Shown here in pieces: positions 50,146 to 63,143 of a stretch of DNA of 64,000 nt (within the stretch, counting starts at the first letter, position 1; each line of letters starts with the position of its first letter). The notes under the pieces are model-generated. The model saw nothing but the letters and a program-made list of their open reading frames with translations, made no database searches and was not told where the DNA came from. The position numbers and the translations under genes are program-made. Where the stretch lies: contig NZ_PPCX01000010.1 in assembly GCF_002959775.1 (NCBI RefSeq), forward strand, positions 62,001-126,000, read 5' to 3'. The stretch comes from Veillonella rogosae JCM 15642 (GTDB taxonomy: Bacteria; Bacillota; Negativicutes; Veillonellales; Veillonellaceae).

Positions 50146-53100
50146 TTACTCAAACATTGTCGATAGTAGTAGTTTCAACCGATTCGCTTGGTTTACTGCA
50201 CTGGAGCCAGGATCGTAGTCGATTGCTGCGATGCGCACTTCTGGATAGGCTGCAGATAGTGTTTTCACCATGCCTTTACCCGTTACGTGGTTTGGCAAGC
50301 AGCCGAATGGTTGCAAGCATACGATTTGTTTGGCTCCTTTTTCAATAAGGTCGATCATATCGCCTGTGAGGAACCAGCCTTCACCACATTGGTTACCAAG
50401 GCCGATAAATTGAGCTGCTTCTTTTGCTACTTCTGTCATACGTTGTAGAGGATCAAAGTTTTTAGACGCCGCTACGGCTTTAGCATATGGCAAGCGGTAG
50501 AGTTCAAGGGCTTCACGTGCTAGTGTACCGAAGAAACCAGATAACCATGTCCCATCAAGGTGTTTTGCACGGTATGTGCTGTCCATTGCACAGTACAAGA
50601 AGAAGTCTAATAAGCCAGATGTAACGACTTCGCCCCCTTCTTTTTCAATGAGTTCATTGATATGGTTGTTAGCACTTGGGTGGAATTTAACGTAAATTTC
50701 CCCTACGACGCCAACGCGAGGTTTTTGTACGTCTTTGTTAACTGGCAAGTTATCAAAGTCATGGATAATCTCTTTGATGTACTTATTGTACTGACGAAGG
50801 CTGGCAGATGTAATGTTTTCACGCAGCTTTTTAAGCCAGTAATCACATAATGCATCGGTAGAGCCAGGGTTCTTTTCGTATGGGCGTGTAGCCAATACGC
50901 ATTGCATAATAGCATCACCATATACCACGGCTTGGATCATGCGATGTAAGAAGCCTTTAGTCAACTTAAAGCCTGGTTGACGTTCCATATCACTCGCATT
51001 GAGGGATAGGATTGGCACTTGTTTCATACCTGCATCAATCAATGCTTTACGCAAGTAACCGATATAGTTCGTCGCACGACAGCCACCACCCGTTTGAGAG
51101 ATGATAACTGCTGTTTTTTCTACGTCATATTTACCAGACAGTAAGGCCGACATGAGCTGACCTACAACGATGATTGCTGGATAACATGCATCATTATTGA
51201 TGTATTTTAGGCCCACTTCAATATCATCGCGCGTAGGCGCTGGCAACATTTCAAAGTCATAACCTTCGTTTTTGAGGACTGGCTCTAAGAGGCTAAAATG
51301 TAATGGTGACATTTGTGGCACCAAGATTTTATAGGTCTTACGCATTTCCTCAGTGAACACCACACGATTGTAATCGTAAGTTGGTAATTCTTCTACCACC
51401 ACTTCTTCTGGTGCCTCTGGGTTATTATGACGACGCAAGCTACGTTCCATTACAGATTGCAAGGAACGCAGACGAATCGTTACAGCCCCAAGGTTTGTAC
51501 CTTCGTCAATTTTGAGTAAGGTATGGATCTTATGGTTTGCTGAAAGTATATCTTTTACTTGATCCGCTACGATAGAATCGAGACCGCAACCAAAGGAATT
51601 AAGCTCTACAATTTGGAAGCCTTCTGTTCTGCTTACGAATTCAGCAGCACGGTATAAACGACTATGGTAGGACCATTGGTCTACAACGCGCAAATGCTTG
51701 ATATCATTACCGAGAGGTGCTACACCATCTTCAGTAAGAACAGCCATCCCTAGAGATGTAATGAGCTCAGGAATACCGTGATTAATACCGGAGTCTAAAT
51801 GATATGGACGACCAGCTAAAACGATGGTTGGAATTTGTTCTGCTACGAGGCGAGAAACAGTTTTCTTCGTCGTTTCACGGTAAGAGGCTTTACAATTTTC
51901 TTGCTCTTCCCAAGCAAGGTCTACTGCCTTAGCAATATCTTTCTTCTTGAGATCCAAGAAGTCCAATGCTTTCACAAGGGCAGGAACAAGAGATTTTTTA
52001 TCAGCCAACGGCAAGAATGGCGCGTGGAATGGAGTATCCCCCAGAACCTCCTGCATGTTGTTTTTGATAAGTTCTGGATAGGAAATAACCATTGGACAAT
52101 GGTAGTTGTTGTCGCGGCTAAATTCCTTAGGACCATGTTGCACACAAGGGTACCAAATAAAGTCTACCTGTGCATTCGCCAAATCCCGAATATGACCATG
52201 CACAGCCTTTGCAGGATAACAAGCCGTATCGGATGGAATCGTATCAATAGCCTTATTGTATTGATCCTTTGTCGTATATTCTGAAAGGATAACTTCATAG
52301 CCCAAGGTGTTAAAGAATGTAAACCAGAATGGGAAATCCTCATACATGTTGAGGACGCGCGGAATACCAACACGCATTTTACCTTCAAACTCTGGAATAT
52401 TTTTCTTCAAATAATAGTCGAAGTAACGGCGCAATTTTACATCTACCAAGTTAGGAACTGCTTTGCGTTCCTCTTGAATCATACCGCCCGCACCGCGGTC
52501 ACAACGATTGCCCGTTACGTAAGTACGACCATCAGAGAAAGCATTGATGGTAAGCATACAGTTATTGGAGCAAAGTCCGCAATTGCGCATTGTCGTAGCA
52601 ACTTGTAAGGAATTAAGCCCTTCGCTATCTAACAATGTACTATTACCCTTTTGCAACTCTTCAGCTGTTTCAGCAGCAAGAAGAGCCATACCGTATGCGC
52701 CCATCAAGCCAGATACGTCAGGACGAATTACTTCTACGCCCATCAATTTTTCGAAGGCGCGCAAAACGGATTCATTGTAGAATGTACCGCCTTGTACAAC
52801 GATATGATCACCCAATTCTTTAGGATCTTTTACCTTAAGAACCTTGTAAAGGGCATTTTTAATTACAGAATAAGCAAGGCCTGCTGCAATATCTTGTACC
52901 GTAGCACCTTCTTTTTGGGCTTGCTTAACCTTAGAGTTCATGAATACGGTACAACGAGAGCCTAAGTCGATTGGCAAGGTTGCCAACAAACCTTCCTTCG
53001 CGAATTGGTCGATAGGAATACGCAAGCCAGATGCGAAGGTATCGATGAAAGAACCGCAACCAGAGGAGCAAGCTTCGTTCAATACAATATCTTCGATGTA

Positions 53101-54402
53101 GCCATCGCGAACCTTACAACATTTCATATCTTGACCACCGATATCCAAGATAAAGGATACATCAGGACAGAAGAAGCGGGCCGCACGATAGTGAGCCATC
53201 GTTTCTACTTCACCGATATCGATGCCAAGGGCGCGTTTAAGAAAGGCTTCGCCGTAGCCAGTTACACCAGAGTGTGCAATATATGCACCTTTAGGCAATA
53301 ATGTGTAAATTTGCTCGATAATTTCACGAGATTTTTCTAATGGTTTACCATGGTTAGGACCATAGTGAGAGAAGATAATTTCCTTATTGCTGTTGATGAG
53401 CACTACTTTTAAAGTAGTGGAACCAGCATCGATACCAAGGTAACAAGGACCTTGAGCATCCTCAATATTCGCCTTTGGCGTTACCGCCTTAGCATGACGA
53501 GCTCGGAATTCTTCTAATTCTTGTTCATTTTTAAATAGTGGATCTACACGGTCTGTAGCTTCCATAGGAATACCGATAAGAGCACCGATTTCCTTTGTCA
53601 ATTGACCAACCGTAATCTCACGGCATTCATCTTTCATCAATGCCGCCCCTAAAGCGATGAACAATTCACCATTCTCAGGGATGATGCGTTGAGATTCTTC
53701 CAGCTCTAATGTGTCACAGAAACATTGGCGCAATTCGGACAGGAATGTCAACGGACCGCCAAGGAATGCCACATTACCTTCGATTTTATGGCCGCATGCG
53801 AGGCCTGCAATCGTTTGGTTTACAATAGCTTGGAATACAGATTTAGCAATGTTTTCATGGGATGCCCCTTGATTTAACAAGGCTTGAACGTCAGTTTTTG
53901 CAAACACGCCACAACGTGCCGCAATTGGGTAAATTGTATCAGAATTCATAGCCAATTGGTTGAGACCAGATGCATCAGTTTGCAATAAGGTCGCCATTTG
54001 GTCTATGAAAGCACCTGTACCACCAGCACAGGAACCATTCATACGGTGTTCTGCAGTTTGACCTAAGTAAGTAACCTTCGCATCCTCACCACCAAGTTCG
54101 ATGATAACATCTGTTTCTGGATAGAGCGCTTTCACAGCTCGCGTTTCAGCAATAACCTCTTGTACGAATGGAATGCGCACCTTTTCGGCCATCGCCATAC
54201 CACCAGAACCAGTAATACATACGTGAACTAGATCATCTTCATGGCCTACTTGAGCCTCTTGAAGCAAGGTATATACTGTGTCCAAAATATTCGCATAATG
54301 GCGTACGTACTTCTTATACAAATAATTATCGTGTTCGTCCAATAGTACAACTTTAACCGTTGTAGACCCCACGTCAATACCCATGCGTAGCATGTGCTGC
54401 AT
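50146..54402 (-). CDS. Giant 2-hydroxyacyl-CoA dehydratase activator-type protein (BadF/BcrA ATPase + DUF2229 fusion)
   Basis: A 1418-residue cytoplasmic protein. Two ASKHA ATPase domains come first, each with a phosphate loop (GIDVGSTTVKVVLLD at the N-terminus; GIDAGSTTLKVVLI near residue 320) and a cluster-binding Cys motif (NGSCAGGTGAFID; EACSSGCGSFID). A Cys-rich segment (NCGLCSNNCMLTINAF, GNRCDRG) and a DUF2229 domain follow (RVGIPRVLNMYEDFPFWFTF), and the C-terminal third resembles the dehydratase subunit HgdB. Such proteins activate radical 2-hydroxyacyl-CoA dehydratases by ATP-driven electron transfer; long fused forms are common in anaerobes and their substrate is unknown. The ATG at 54402 follows AGAGAGG. 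Single gene. Confidence 0.85.
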   Translation of the reverse strand: MQHMLRMGIDVGSTTVKVVLLDEHDNYLYKKYVRHYANILDTVYTLLQEAQVGHEDDLVHVCITGSGGMAMAEKVRIPFVQEVIAETRAVKALYPETDVIIELGGEDAKVTYLGQTAEHRMNGSCAGGTGAFIDQMATLLQTDASGLNQLAMNSDTIYPIAARCGVFAKTDVQALLNQGASHENIAKSVFQAIVNQTIAGLACGHKIEGNVAFLGGPLTFLSELRQCFCDTLELEESQRIIPENGELFIALGAALMKDECREITVGQLTKEIGALIGIPMEATDRVDPLFKNEQELEEFRARHAKAVTPKANIEDAQGPCYLGIDAGSTTLKVVLINSNKEIIFSHYGPNHGKPLEKSREIIEQIYTLLPKGAYIAHSGVTGYGEAFLKRALGIDIGEVETMAHYRAARFFCPDVSFILDIGGQDMKCCKVRDGYIEDIVLNEACSSGCGSFIDTFASGLRIPIDQFAKEGLLATLPIDLGSRCTVFMNSKVKQAQKEGATVQDIAAGLAYSVIKNALYKVLKVKDPKELGDHIVVQGGTFYNESVLRAFEKLMGVEVIRPDVSGLMGAYGMALLAAETAEELQKGNSTLLDSEGLNSLQVATTMRNCGLCSNNCMLTINAFSDGRTYVTGNRCDRGAGGMIQEERKAVPNLVDVKLRRYFDYYLKKNIPEFEGKMRVGIPRVLNMYEDFPFWFTFFNTLGYEVILSEYTTKDQYNKAIDTIPSDTACYPAKAVHGHIRDLANAQVDFIWYPCVQHGPKEFSRDNNYHCPMVISYPELIKNNMQEVLGDTPFHAPFLPLADKKSLVPALVKALDFLDLKKKDIAKAVDLAWEEQENCKASYRETTKKTVSRLVAEQIPTIVLAGRPYHLDSGINHGIPELITSLGMAVLTEDGVAPLGNDIKHLRVVDQWSYHSRLYRAAEFVSRTEGFQIVELNSFGCGLDSIVADQVKDILSANHKIHTLLKIDEGTNLGAVTIRLRSLQSVMERSLRRHNNPEAPEEVVVEELPTYDYNRVVFTEEMRKTYKILVPQMSPLHFSLLEPVLKNEGYDFEMLPAPTRDDIEVGLKYINNDACYPAIIVVGQLMSALLSGKYDVEKTAVIISQTGGGCRATNYIGYLRKALIDAGMKQVPILSLNASDMERQPGFKLTKGFLHRMIQAVVYGDAIMQCVLATRPYEKNPGSTDALCDYWLKKLRENITSASLRQYNKYIKEIIHDFDNLPVNKDVQKPRVGVVGEIYVKFHPSANNHINELIEKEGGEVVTSGLLDFFLYCAMDSTYRAKHLDGTWLSGFFGTLAREALELYRLPYAKAVAASKNFDPLQRMTEVAKEAAQFIGLGNQCGEGWFLTGDMIDLIEKGAKQIVCLQPFGCLPNHVTGKGMVKTLSAAYPEVRIAAIDYDPGSSAVNQANRLKLLLSTMFE

Positions 54403-54838
54403 AAATACCTCTCTTTTTAACAACCGTATGACCGCCTAAGCGATCATACTCGTTTTTGTGAAAGTAGCACATCATAAAATACCAAATACGATGTACTAAA
54501 CATCTAACTTGTAAAACTAAAAATTAGATGAGGATATTATACTTTCACGAAAATATCTAAATTTTTAAATATCCTACCTATATTATACAACAAAAGCAGC
54601 TAAAATCTAAGTTTTCTTATATTCCAAAGAGTTATAAAGAATATAACTAATTTTGAATTGCAACGTCGTATTTCCTATAGGATATAAAGAATATTATAAC
54701 ACTTTAACATAAAAAAAGATGTATCTACCAGTACTTAAATAAACTGATAACAGTCATATAAAAATCAGAAAAGAGACTTCAATGAAATCATCGAAGTCTC
54801 TTTTCAAAACATTATATTAATATCGGTCTTATATGGAT
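54403..54838. other. Upstream region of the activator gene
   Basis: About 435 AT-rich bases. Two GTGAAAG motifs occur in opposite orientation (54458-54464 and 54542-54548). Two short palindrome-like sites share ATAAAGAATAT: GTTATAaagaaTATAAC at about 54629-54645 and ATATaaagaATAT at about 54681-54693; they could bind a regulator. The pduQ terminator is at 54769-54804. No gene was seen. Confidence 0.5.
54769..54804 (-). terminator. Terminator of the microcompartment operon
   Basis: AAAAGAGACTTC pairs with GAAGTCTCTTTT, with a further ATGA/TCAT pair inside the loop, 35 bases past the pduQ stop. The symmetric A- and T-runs support termination of the minus-strand operon. Confidence 0.88.
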
Positions 54839-60070: not shown

Positions 60071-60616
60071 TTATTTCTTTTTAGCGCTTTTTTTTGGTGG
60101 TACTTTTTTCGTTACTACCTTCTTGGAATCCTTTGGATCAATAATGGTGGAAACGATTTCATTCAACACCTTTACAGCTTTTTCATCTAGAGAAGACTTC
60201 TTCTCTTCAGCACCTTCAGCTTTACTGTTTTCTTTTGAACCATCTTTAGCATCATCTTTAACTACTTTTGTAGATTCTTCTTTAACTACTGCTTTTACTG
60301 GTTCTATTTCAACAGATACCTTAGCCGACTGTTCCTTAAAGTCTTCATTGAAAGCTTCTACAAGACCTTCTGCTGGCCGAGGAATCACCTTATGAGCTAC
60401 ATATAGATTCATTCCCTTTGTTATAGCAATGCCTGTTTGAACGGCTGCATCTACAGCGGCTACATCGCCGGCAACTTTAACAGTCATCCACCCAGATCCT
60501 TTAGCCTTTTCAATGCCTACTAGCCTTACATTGGCAGCTTTAACCATTGCATCTGATGCGGTAATAGCTCCCAATAACCCAGCCACCTCAAGTAGTCCTA
60601 GTGACTCTTTCACCAT
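60071..60616 (-). CDS. BMC-H shell protein with long charged C-terminal tail (PduK-like)
   Basis: A 181-residue protein. Residues 1-88 are a BMC-H domain (GLLEVAGLLGAITASDAMVK, pore loop KAKGSGWMT, YVAHKVIPRP). Residues 89-181 form a tail that is rich in Lys, Glu and Ser and predicted to be disordered, with a helical stretch around KAVKVLNEIVSTIIDP and a basic end (KKVPPKKSAKKK). PduK and EutK have C-terminal extensions, but this one differs: no Cys cluster (PduK) and no helix-turn-helix (EutK) was seen. The tail may face the lumen or cytoplasm and bind cargo or nucleic acid; this is inference. The ATG follows GGGAGG. Confidence 0.85.
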   Translation of the reverse strand: MVKESLGLLEVAGLLGAITASDAMVKAANVRLVGIEKAKGSGWMTVKVAGDVAAVDAAVQTGIAITKGMNLYVAHKVIPRPAEGLVEAFNEDFKEQSAKVSVEIEPVKAVVKEESTKVVKDDAKDGSKENSKAEGAEEKKSSLDEKAVKVLNEIVSTIIDPKDSKKVVTKKVPPKKSAKKK

Positions 60617-60675: not shown

Positions 60676-60855
60676 CTAGTTACGTTGCATATCTACTAAC
60701 ATTTGACGAATCAAATCTTTTAACTCTGGCTCTTGATGCTCTGCTTTAAGTTCTTCTTTAGGTTGAACCTGAACAGGTTCCTCTTTGAGCATCCCCACTT
60801 CATCCATTATGTCCATAATGATAGCCCGTAACATTTGTTCATTTAGTTCTGCCAT
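60676..60855 (-). CDS. 59-residue peptide with two encapsulation-peptide-like helices
   Basis: A small gene inside the microcompartment operon, between the tailed BMC-H gene and pduB, too short for common gene finders. ATG at 60855-60853 with AGGAGG seven bases upstream, TAG at 60678-60676. Residues 3-20 (ELNEQMLRAIIMDIMDEV) and residues 43-57 (PELKDLIRQMLVDMQ) are amphipathic helices of the kind that direct enzymes such as PduP, PduL and PduD into the shell; they are joined by a linker of about 22 residues rich in Glu, Pro, Lys and Gln. The reading frame was checked codon by codon. It might bridge shell subunits or cargo. No known family was recognised. Confidence 0.8.
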   Translation of the reverse strand: MAELNEQMLRAIIMDIMDEVGMLKEEPVQVQPKEELKAEHQEPELKDLIRQMLVDMQRN

Positions 60856-60946
60856 TATGAATCCTCCTATTCACATTGTGAAAGTATCATCTATTTCATC
60901 ATAACGATTACAGTTATTTAAAGTTTACAATCCCATAATCAACACA

Positions 60947-61789
60947 TTAGATTATGTAGGACTCACCTGTATTTTTAGGCTCACTACCCATTGTGCCAAG
61001 CAATGTAATCCCTACTTCTCTAGCTACCTTAACGGCTTGTTTAACAGCCCCTGAATCACCACAAATTTGTAAAATTACTTCGTTAGACATAGCTGAGCTC
61101 GATGGTGATTGATAGCCTACCACATCTACATTAGCTGATTTAACAGCTGCATCGGCCATAACTACACCGATAGCAGCTGGTGCACCGACAATTAAGCCAA
61201 AAGCTTTACCTTCTGGAGTTCCAAAGGCCGTTACTAAGGCATCGCCTGCACGAGCTGTATATTGAATTTCCACATGACCTGCTTCATTCATATATACTTC
61301 GCCAAAGGTCCGTTCTAATTCACGTAATGCTACCTCTACAGAACGTCTTACATCGGATACGTCATCGCCTCCGAATATAATGAGGGAACCAGAGCCAGCG
61401 CCACCTTTCATGTCTCTAGCAAGTTCAATGCTTACAATCTCTGTATTTGTTGCTTTTACAGCTTCATCAGCGGCCATAATTTGCGGCCCTGCACCAGTAC
61501 GTGAGCCTAAGATACCGATAGATCGATATGACTTAGTGAGCTTCATAGCTTCCAATACTTGACTATCAACATTGGCAATTACTAGACCAATTGTATCGCC
61601 TGTTGTAGTGCTACCTACGTGTTCAGTAATCATAGAAGTTTGTAGTTGACTTACAGCAGGTGAACTTACAGGTGCTGAAGCACATGATGCATTACTAGTC
61701 GCGCCTGAAGTTTTGCTTAAATCAGCACTATCGATACGCATCAATACGCGCTTTAAAATCTCATCTACCATACTTTTAGTATCGGCCAT
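60947..61789 (-). CDS. pduB: BMC-T tandem-domain shell protein (PduB)
   Basis: A 280-residue trimeric shell protein with two BMC domains. After a 65-residue N-terminal extension (starting MADTKSMVDEILKRVLMRID), the PduB core follows: GDTIGLVIANVDSQVLEAMK, YRSIGILGSRTGAGPQIMAA, GGAGSGSLIIFGGDDVSDVR and FGLIVGAPAAIGVVMADAAV. PduB forms a pore-bearing trimer and its N-terminus links shell to cargo. The ATG begins two bases past the pduA stop. The N-terminal helix resembles an encapsulation peptide. Confidence 0.94.
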   Translation of the reverse strand: MADTKSMVDEILKRVLMRIDSADLSKTSGATSNASCASAPVSSPAVSQLQTSMITEHVGSTTTGDTIGLVIANVDSQVLEAMKLTKSYRSIGILGSRTGAGPQIMAADEAVKATNTEIVSIELARDMKGGAGSGSLIIFGGDDVSDVRRSVEVALRELERTFGEVYMNEAGHVEIQYTARAGDALVTAFGTPEGKAFGLIVGAPAAIGVVMADAAVKSANVDVVGYQSPSSSAMSNEVILQICGDSGAVKQAVKVAREVGITLLGTMGSEPKNTGESYII

Positions 61790-62117: not shown

Positions 62118-63125
62118 TTATTTTTCTAATAGTTCCACCATAGTACCTATATTCATAAAGGCAAAGTGCGCTGTTTTAAGTAGTTGTACCATGAGTACAG
62201 CACCAGTACCTTCACCTAACGCCATTTGTCCATGGATTGGAACTTCATCAAGACGAATATTTGCATAAGCCAATGCTGCGGCCATCCCTACCTCGCGAGA
62301 ATAATGAGATGGAATACCATATAATGGAGCGTCTCCATTCATTTGAGTGGCACAAGCCATTGCCACCGCTGTAATATACCCATCGATAACGAATGGGATA
62401 TGTAAATCTGTACAAGCTACCATCGCACCTGTAATTGCGGCTATATCAAAACCACCAACGCGACTAATAACATCCTTTGGTGTATTGAGATGCCCTTTAT
62501 GATGCGCTAAGGCAGTCCGTACAAACTCACGTTTTTGATTCATATACGCTTCGTCATCGGGACCAGAGCCAGGTCCTACAGTTATCCGTGGGTCTAATTT
62601 TGTAAGCCCGCTTAACACGGCTGCCGATGTGGTAGTATTACCAACGCCCATTTCACCAAAGGAAAATAGATTAATTCCCGATTCCGCATAGTATATAACG
62701 CGGTTGTAACCAGCTTGGTATGCTAAATCAAATTCTTCGCCGCTCATAGCGGCACCATGTAAAATATTTTTTGTACCTTGACTAACTTTTCGATCTATCC
62801 CGATACCTTTAGGGCACGCAATACCAACGTCTACTACTTCATAAGGAATATGGTTAAAGATACAGTAATTGGCAACTGCGCTTTTACCGTCAATCATATT
62901 CTGAGATTGTTTACGAGTAATTTCGTAGTTATAACCGATCAGTCCGTCTACGGAGATTCCGTTATCTGCAGAAAAGATAATATGTTGTGCATGAATCTCA
63001 GGCCGAATTTCTTGCCAAGCAAGACACATCTTTTTGAAATATCGTTCCCATAGACCCAAGCTTTTTGGAATGATCGCCTTATTTAAAATAAATTGATTAA
63101 GTTGTTCTTCAAAACCTCTGTCCAT
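62118..63125 (-). CDS. cobT: Nicotinate-nucleotide:dimethylbenzimidazole phosphoribosyltransferase
   Basis: A 335-residue enzyme that activates the lower-ligand base of cobamides (alpha-ribazole phosphate synthesis). It shows HIIFSADNGISVDGLIGYN, FGEMGVGNTTTSAAVLSG, the substrate loop GGFDIAAITGAMV and the catalytic Glu in MALGEGTGAVLM. The start is the ATG at 63125, after GAAGG, rather than the TTG at 63143. Its position inside a microcompartment operon implies that the missing signature enzyme is cobamide-dependent (diol/glycerol dehydratase or ethanolamine lyase). CobT is not a usual member of pdu operons. Confidence 0.92.
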   Translation of the reverse strand: MDRGFEEQLNQFILNKAIIPKSLGLWERYFKKMCLAWQEIRPEIHAQHIIFSADNGISVDGLIGYNYEITRKQSQNMIDGKSAVANYCIFNHIPYEVVDVGIACPKGIGIDRKVSQGTKNILHGAAMSGEEFDLAYQAGYNRVIYYAESGINLFSFGEMGVGNTTTSAAVLSGLTKLDPRITVGPGSGPDDEAYMNQKREFVRTALAHHKGHLNTPKDVISRVGGFDIAAITGAMVACTDLHIPFVIDGYITAVAMACATQMNGDAPLYGIPSHYSREVGMAAALAYANIRLDEVPIHGQMALGEGTGAVLMVQLLKTAHFAFMNIGTMVELLEK

Positions 63126-63143
63126 GGAAAAACCTTCTTTCAA

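Follow-up and report, generated by a model that had tools for sequence, protein, structure and literature searches.

We describe, in the propanediol-utilisation (pdu) operon of Veillonella rogosae, a 59-codon gene whose product is predicted to consist of two different helices of the encapsulation-peptide (EP) type joined by a linker. The gene lies at 60676..60855 (-), stop included, of the window, by which we mean the whole 64,000-nucleotide stretch that was analysed (C1:62001-126000 of the 2.19 Mb source genome, G000). Our reading, to which we give slightly less than an even chance and which draws on analogy with published EP biochemistry, is that a second pduD(-E) copy left this peptide behind as a relic, which has been retained as a bivalent EP without an enzyme and would cross-link the enzyme condensate seeding the microcompartment.

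The peptide, MAELNEQMLRAIIMDIMDEVGMLKEEPVQVQPKEELKAEHQEPELKDLIRQMLVDMQRN, starts with an ATG codon, and an AGGAGG motif stands 7 nt 5' of it. The ribosome-binding site, TAGGAGGA (60862..60869 (-)), can be aligned with that of pduD in Megasphaera-type loci. A leader of some 39 nt precedes the start codon (60856..60894 (-)); it is identical in three species, bears a palindrome, TTCACAATGTGAA, at 60870-60882 beside this site and is unique within the genome. The same frame, unchanged in start, stop and length, was present in two further Veillonella species (genomes G018 and G012, with one genome per species; loci L002 and L003), confirming that it is real and beyond chance. The original prediction of a complete 59-residue frame with an AGGAGG site was right, except that the strand is the minus one: on open-reading-frame reading, the plus strand contains stops throughout 60676-60855. 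The peptide matched no family among the Pfam and NCBIfam models, and a plasmid search gave no match.

The minus-strand operon was read across the window and its flank, with H taken from orthologous loci, and runs 5' to 3' as pduB' (short), C, D, E, G, H, O, F, U, V, a cobT-like gene, A, B (long), the peptide gene, K, J, L, eutJ, M, N, P and Q. The products of B, L, eutJ, M and P scored above the NCBIfam cut-offs, D and E matched the models of the medium and small dehydratase subunits and C that of the large one; G, H, O, F, U, V, A, J, K, N and Q were named by gene order and sequence reading. With its gene set from B to Q and its dehydratase matches, this is therefore a complete propanediol-utilisation locus, and the proposed location inside a microcompartment operon is genuine. 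The peptide gene follows by 91 bp the long form of pduB (60947..61789 (-), stop at 60947; NCBIfam PduB equivalog), which has an N-terminal signal helix, and stands 59 bp ahead of the gene of a PduK-type BMC shell protein with a long C-terminal tail (60071..60616 (-), start at 60616; Pfam BMC, 4.9e-23). Thus, the distance of 91 bases to pduB had been given correctly but not the direction, the peptide gene being downstream of pduB and not upstream. It is not a mis-called or truncated pduD, because an intact pduCDE, followed by pduG, sits 8.5 kb upstream, and the peptide frame has its own stop in all three species.

AlphaFold2, run on the three-species alignment, predicted helices at residues 2-21 and 45-58 and no structure at residues 22-44, with a mean pLDDT of 71.6 (about 76-83 in the helix blocks and 52-57 in the linker). 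These bounds are close to those of the two amphipathic segments, 3-20 and 43-57, first proposed from the sequence. The linker (60724..60792 (-)), expected to be flexible, is charged, variable between species and predicted to be disordered, with low pLDDT and no predicted secondary structure. Both segments had been said to be of EP flavour, and each scored above all 3000 shuffles against encapsulation-helix matrices. As in known EPs, they are amphipathic helices of 15-20 residues with a conserved hydrophobic/arginine pattern, as judged by sequence and AlphaFold2, and they occupy both protein termini next to a poorly conserved linker; by Pfam and NCBIfam, no cargo or structural domain is fused to them in the 59 residues. 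Since sequence and prediction both give two helices of EP type, each chain would carry more than one putative binding element, as in a multivalent scaffold. Neither helix is a repeat of the other (best BLOSUM sum, 12).

Helix 1 (residues 2-21, 60793..60852 (-)) was assigned to the PduD type by AlphaFold2, a PduD-EP matrix and identity to AEINEQVLRALIMEVLQEMG. Against the matrix of Negativicutes PduD signal helices it scored 37.3 bits, the top shuffle out of 3000 reaching 16.6, and it shares 12 of 20 residues with this segment of PduD from genus g4, which we take to be Megasphaera-type. At the DNA level, 46 of the first 66 nt of the peptide gene match the pduD start of locus L038 from the same family, and blastn aligned the start of the gene, including the ribosome site, with the Megasphaera-type pduD region (77% over 57 nt). 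When a profile search was run across the order, PduD N-termini and the three peptide genes were retrieved and no other matches. Moreover, a fold search gave, amid unrelated chance matches, a weak and consistent match of residues 2-19 to the diol dehydratase beta chain 1dio_B (E = 1.5). Relative to the PduD family (PF02288), the N-terminal signal helix is present and the Dehydratase_MU domain is unmatched, the genuine pduD being elsewhere in the operon. Protein and DNA sequence together show that helix 1 and the N-terminus of PduD, the medium subunit of the dehydratase, are homologous. The original prediction had named identity with the truncated N-terminus of a larger enzyme subunit as the outcome that would speak against it; given this homology, that outcome was therefore found in part, helix 1 coming from the medium subunit but the gene being no truncated pduD.

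Helix 2 (residues 45-58, 60682..60723 (-)) was assigned to the PduE/PduP/PduL type by AlphaFold2, matrices, BLOSUM comparison and codon invariance. Its matrix scores spanned 17.5-20.8 bits: about 19-21 bits against the PduE matrix, 18 against that of PduP and 17.5 against that of PduL, in each case above the 3000 shuffles. The best-matching segments were EMESMIRKILEDMQK of PduE, ALKELIRQIIQDVQT of PduL and QLKEMIRSMVIDVLQ of PduP, with BLOSUM sums of 41, 40 and 39, respectively; in a control, folded parts of the operon enzymes reached at most 18. DNA identity to the same three was 29, 28 and 25 of 42 nt. Neither protein nor DNA scores separate the three candidate ancestors, and PduE is favoured as the source because of the gene order, D then E. 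Compared with the PduE family (PF02287), the Dehydratase_SU domain is unmatched, and the resemblance to the PduE N-terminus is confined to helix 2. Lys46 of helix 2 occupies the position of Glu7 in the PduP EP, for which a Glu7-Arg11 bridge was reported; Veillonella PduP likewise has Lys there.

The peptide genes of the three species are 85-88% identical and keep start, stop and length without any indel over 180 nt. Ten residues vary, 7 of them among the 18 of residues 25-42 in the linker versus 3 among the 41 elsewhere (Fisher p = 0.006), and codons 45-58 of helix 2 show no nucleotide change at all. No difference between the three species is seen in the leader of about 39 nt or in the first 50 nt of the gene, while the remainder of the upstream spacer is unalignable, G000 differing from G018 and G012. 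Thus, in the related loci, both helices are near-invariant and the ribosome site is identical, as the original prediction called for. The dN/dS values it asked for were 0.22, 0.32 and 0.52 in the three pairs; a nonsynonymous deficit was significant in the two wider pairs (p = 0.005 and 0.047) but the closest one, G018-G012, showed no significant constraint on its own (p = 0.28). From three sequences, the case for selection on the peptide product is good, though not final.

Concerning distribution, pduC was present in 6 of 14 Veillonella species genomes, and the peptide gene in 3 of these 6; being missing from half of the pdu-positive genomes, it is dispensable. In the other three (G011, G013 and G020), pduB and pduK are only 70, 22 and 92 nt apart, with no gene in between. 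The G020 interval contains AATGGATGAAGTAGGCATG, matching helix 1 codons 16-22 at 18 of 19 positions; an ATGC microhomology marks its junction with ATGCAATGTAGCTAATG..., which corresponds to the last part of helix 2 and the stop codon. These remnants of both helices are a deletion scar and therefore point to loss. A tree of 12 operon genes groups G000 with G020 and G018 with G012, so that the species bearing the gene do not form a clade. The patchy presence is most simply read as repeated loss. Exchange through recombination is possible, and uneven dS suggests recombination. The synonymous divergence of the peptide gene is 0.1-0.3, and that of its neighbours is mostly higher. Beyond the three Veillonella genes, no small-frame relative was found in 61 genomes of the order, 380 of the class and 398 of the phylum (about 780 for class and phylum). 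Likewise, among 973 small frames in 50 stretches (47 Negativicutes diol-dehydratase loci), only the three Veillonella genes were retrieved, the runner-up scoring 15 bits and lacking a ribosome site, and a scan of genome contigs matched solely the locus of Veillonella sp. T11011-6, the contig of G018. The search of Negativicutes and microcompartment loci that had been proposed thus gave the gene in three Veillonella species and no other free peptide, and a widespread peptide family is ruled out by these scans.

How such a gene could have arisen is suggested by gene order. Related, Megasphaera-type loci run A-B-C-D-E-G-H-K-J, and in Veillonella B'-C-D-E-G-H comes early and A-B-peptide-K-J-L later; the peptide therefore occupies the slot that C-D-E-G-H would fill in a second copy. 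In the scenario we propose, the block from B to H would have been duplicated, giving a second pduC-D-E copy in the operon, and the downstream copy would then have been deleted down to the pduD start, with its ribosome site and PduD helix, and fused to another helix, of the PduE/P/L type. Such a duplication followed by deletion probably accounts for the position of the gene, its PduD-like ribosome site and the order of its helices; it leaves some steps unexplained, the linker having no recognised source.

As for function, the published behaviour of EPs is what led us to a cross-linker. EPs form hydrophobic helix bundles, preferably trimers, and those of PduD and PduP co-assemble in vitro (PMC12339742). 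A synthetic chain with two EPs condenses at 15.5 uM versus 33.1 uM for one EP, i.e., at about half the concentration, and partitioning is driven by total EP concentration and rises with more EPs in cells (PMC12339742). Grooves between PduA tiles are a further binding site of EPs (PMC11157265). Salmonella makes fewer microcompartments when the PduD signal sequence is deleted, and ssPduD carried on GFP without its enzyme partly restores their number, a role that ssPduP and ssPduL do not share (PMC12108088). From EP co-assembly and this effect of ssPduD, it follows that a free PduD helix with a second EP should enter the condensate before the shell and add cross-links. In the species that keep the gene, the peptide would be produced together with the other Pdu proteins and would join the condensate of EP-tagged enzymes ahead of shell closure. 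Its PduD-type helix may then pack with the EPs of PduCDE, and helix 2 with those of PduP, PduL or PduE or with the shell groove, so that one small chain would raise EP concentration and valency, cross-link different cargoes and favour nucleation of the core. The idea of a bridge or nucleation factor thus fits published EP biochemistry. The patchy distribution argues for a tuning role rather than an essential part. The more specific claim of a natural, dedicated and enzyme-free 'sticker-spacer-sticker' assembly factor of the metabolosome, made of two different EPs, born from a broken dehydratase gene and tuning core condensation before the shell, we regard as possible, though we lean against it. 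Several observations count against this reading: bundles of cargo-free EPs barely associate further in simulation (PMC12339742), and helix 2 could be of the type of the Salmonella PduE N-terminal helix, which is not a working signal and does not target cargo (PMC12108088). Also against it stand the sample of three sequences, the p value of the closest pair, the absence of the gene from three of the six pdu-positive genomes, and Lys46 in place of Glu7 of the PduP EP.

Three other explanations were weighed. The peptide might be a relic in decay: what is left of the beginning of a second dehydratase copy after its deletion, perhaps still translated and bringing no benefit. The absence of the gene from three of the six pdu-positive genomes, the scar in G020 with pieces of both helices and a gene order matching a deleted CDEGH block would all be expected from decay, and three sequences are few. 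However, 180 nt have stayed free of indels and stops despite the synonymous divergence, changes have gathered in the linker, and the leader with its ribosome site has remained identical next to a spacer that no longer aligns; we hold such decay to be unlikely, though a serious contender. The invariant leader, together with the first 50 nt of the gene, could instead mean that the conserved element is RNA or DNA (the palindrome, or translational coupling to pduK), the peptide being an incidental product, and a weak sigma-70-like match does overlap the leader. Promoter matches are, however, no more numerous than in shuffles, and the predicted RNA fold is not significant (z = -0.09), though it includes a small hairpin at the palindrome. 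Moreover, helix 2, distant from the leader, is also invariant, and both segments are EP-like, which makes this explanation very improbable.

By analogy with EP binding, the peptide could also act in the opposite direction to a cross-linker, as a competitor or size limiter which, having no cargo, would fill EP-binding grooves or cap EP bundles and so cut loading or core growth. The grooves between shell tiles in which EPs sit are in principle open to competition (PMC11157265), and the poor extension of bundles of cargo-free single EPs in simulation (PMC12339742) would agree with capping. One helix would suffice for such a role, however; two per chain favour bridging, and synthetic two-EP chains promote condensation rather than inhibit it (PMC12339742). 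We therefore consider competition improbable.

Compared with known systems, the helices are ordinary encapsulation peptides, and their free bivalent form is the unusual part. Helix 1 resembles the PduD EP in its 12 of 20 identical residues, N-terminal position and DNA-level ribosome-site context, but the Veillonella peptide has no dehydratase domain and ends after the second helix. Helix 2 shares the pattern L-K-x-L-I-R-x-M-L-x-D-M with the PduE, PduP and PduL helices, yet it is C-terminal and free of any enzyme. The synthetic serial EP2 constructs of Trettel et al. (2025, PMC12339742) likewise carry two EPs and linkers per chain, with intrinsic valency; these are identical PduP EPs engineered onto a fluorescent protein, whereas the Veillonella peptide is natural and cargo-free, with two different helices. 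The structural signal sequences of PduB and PduM (PMC12108088) are also EP-type helices serving assembly and not enzyme packing, but they are fused to shell or linker proteins, and their helix similarity to the peptide is weak. The carboxysome scaffolds CcmN, CcmM and CsoS2 may be compared as non-enzymatic multivalent assembly factors, by analogy and with no sequence relation claimed, since they are larger and of another architecture. The main text of the BMC catalogue paper makes no mention of Veillonella, hypothetical or small proteins. On free or multiple EPs on one chain, the open-access literature gave only a sentence on two separate bound peptides; in what was searched there, natural EPs are attached as tags to enzymes or structural proteins, and chains with several EPs are engineered only. 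The peptide would be a clear case of a targeting tag outliving its enzyme. Species with and without it offer a ready comparison for whether the valency and concentration of EPs, independently of the enzymes, set microcompartment number, size and loading, and its 59 residues could serve as a natural part for organelle engineering.

Some further features of the operon were noted. There are two pduB genes, a short one without signal helix before pduC (L012:5013-5768 (-)) and the long one with the helix after pduA (60947-61789 (-)); in Salmonella, both PduB forms are made from a single gene through alternative starts. The PduK-type protein ends in an amphipathic stretch, LDEKAVKVLNEIVSTIID, and a Lys-rich tail. 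Its gene is unusually divergent between G000 and G018 (dS 1.4, dN 0.22), as may result from an imported allele. The cobT-like gene within the operon (62118-63143 (-)) has a similar counterpart upstream of the operon (L012:10623-11660 (-)). Finally, pduQ is followed by a gene for an acyl-CoA dehydratase activase-like protein of 1425 residues (50146-54423 (-)).
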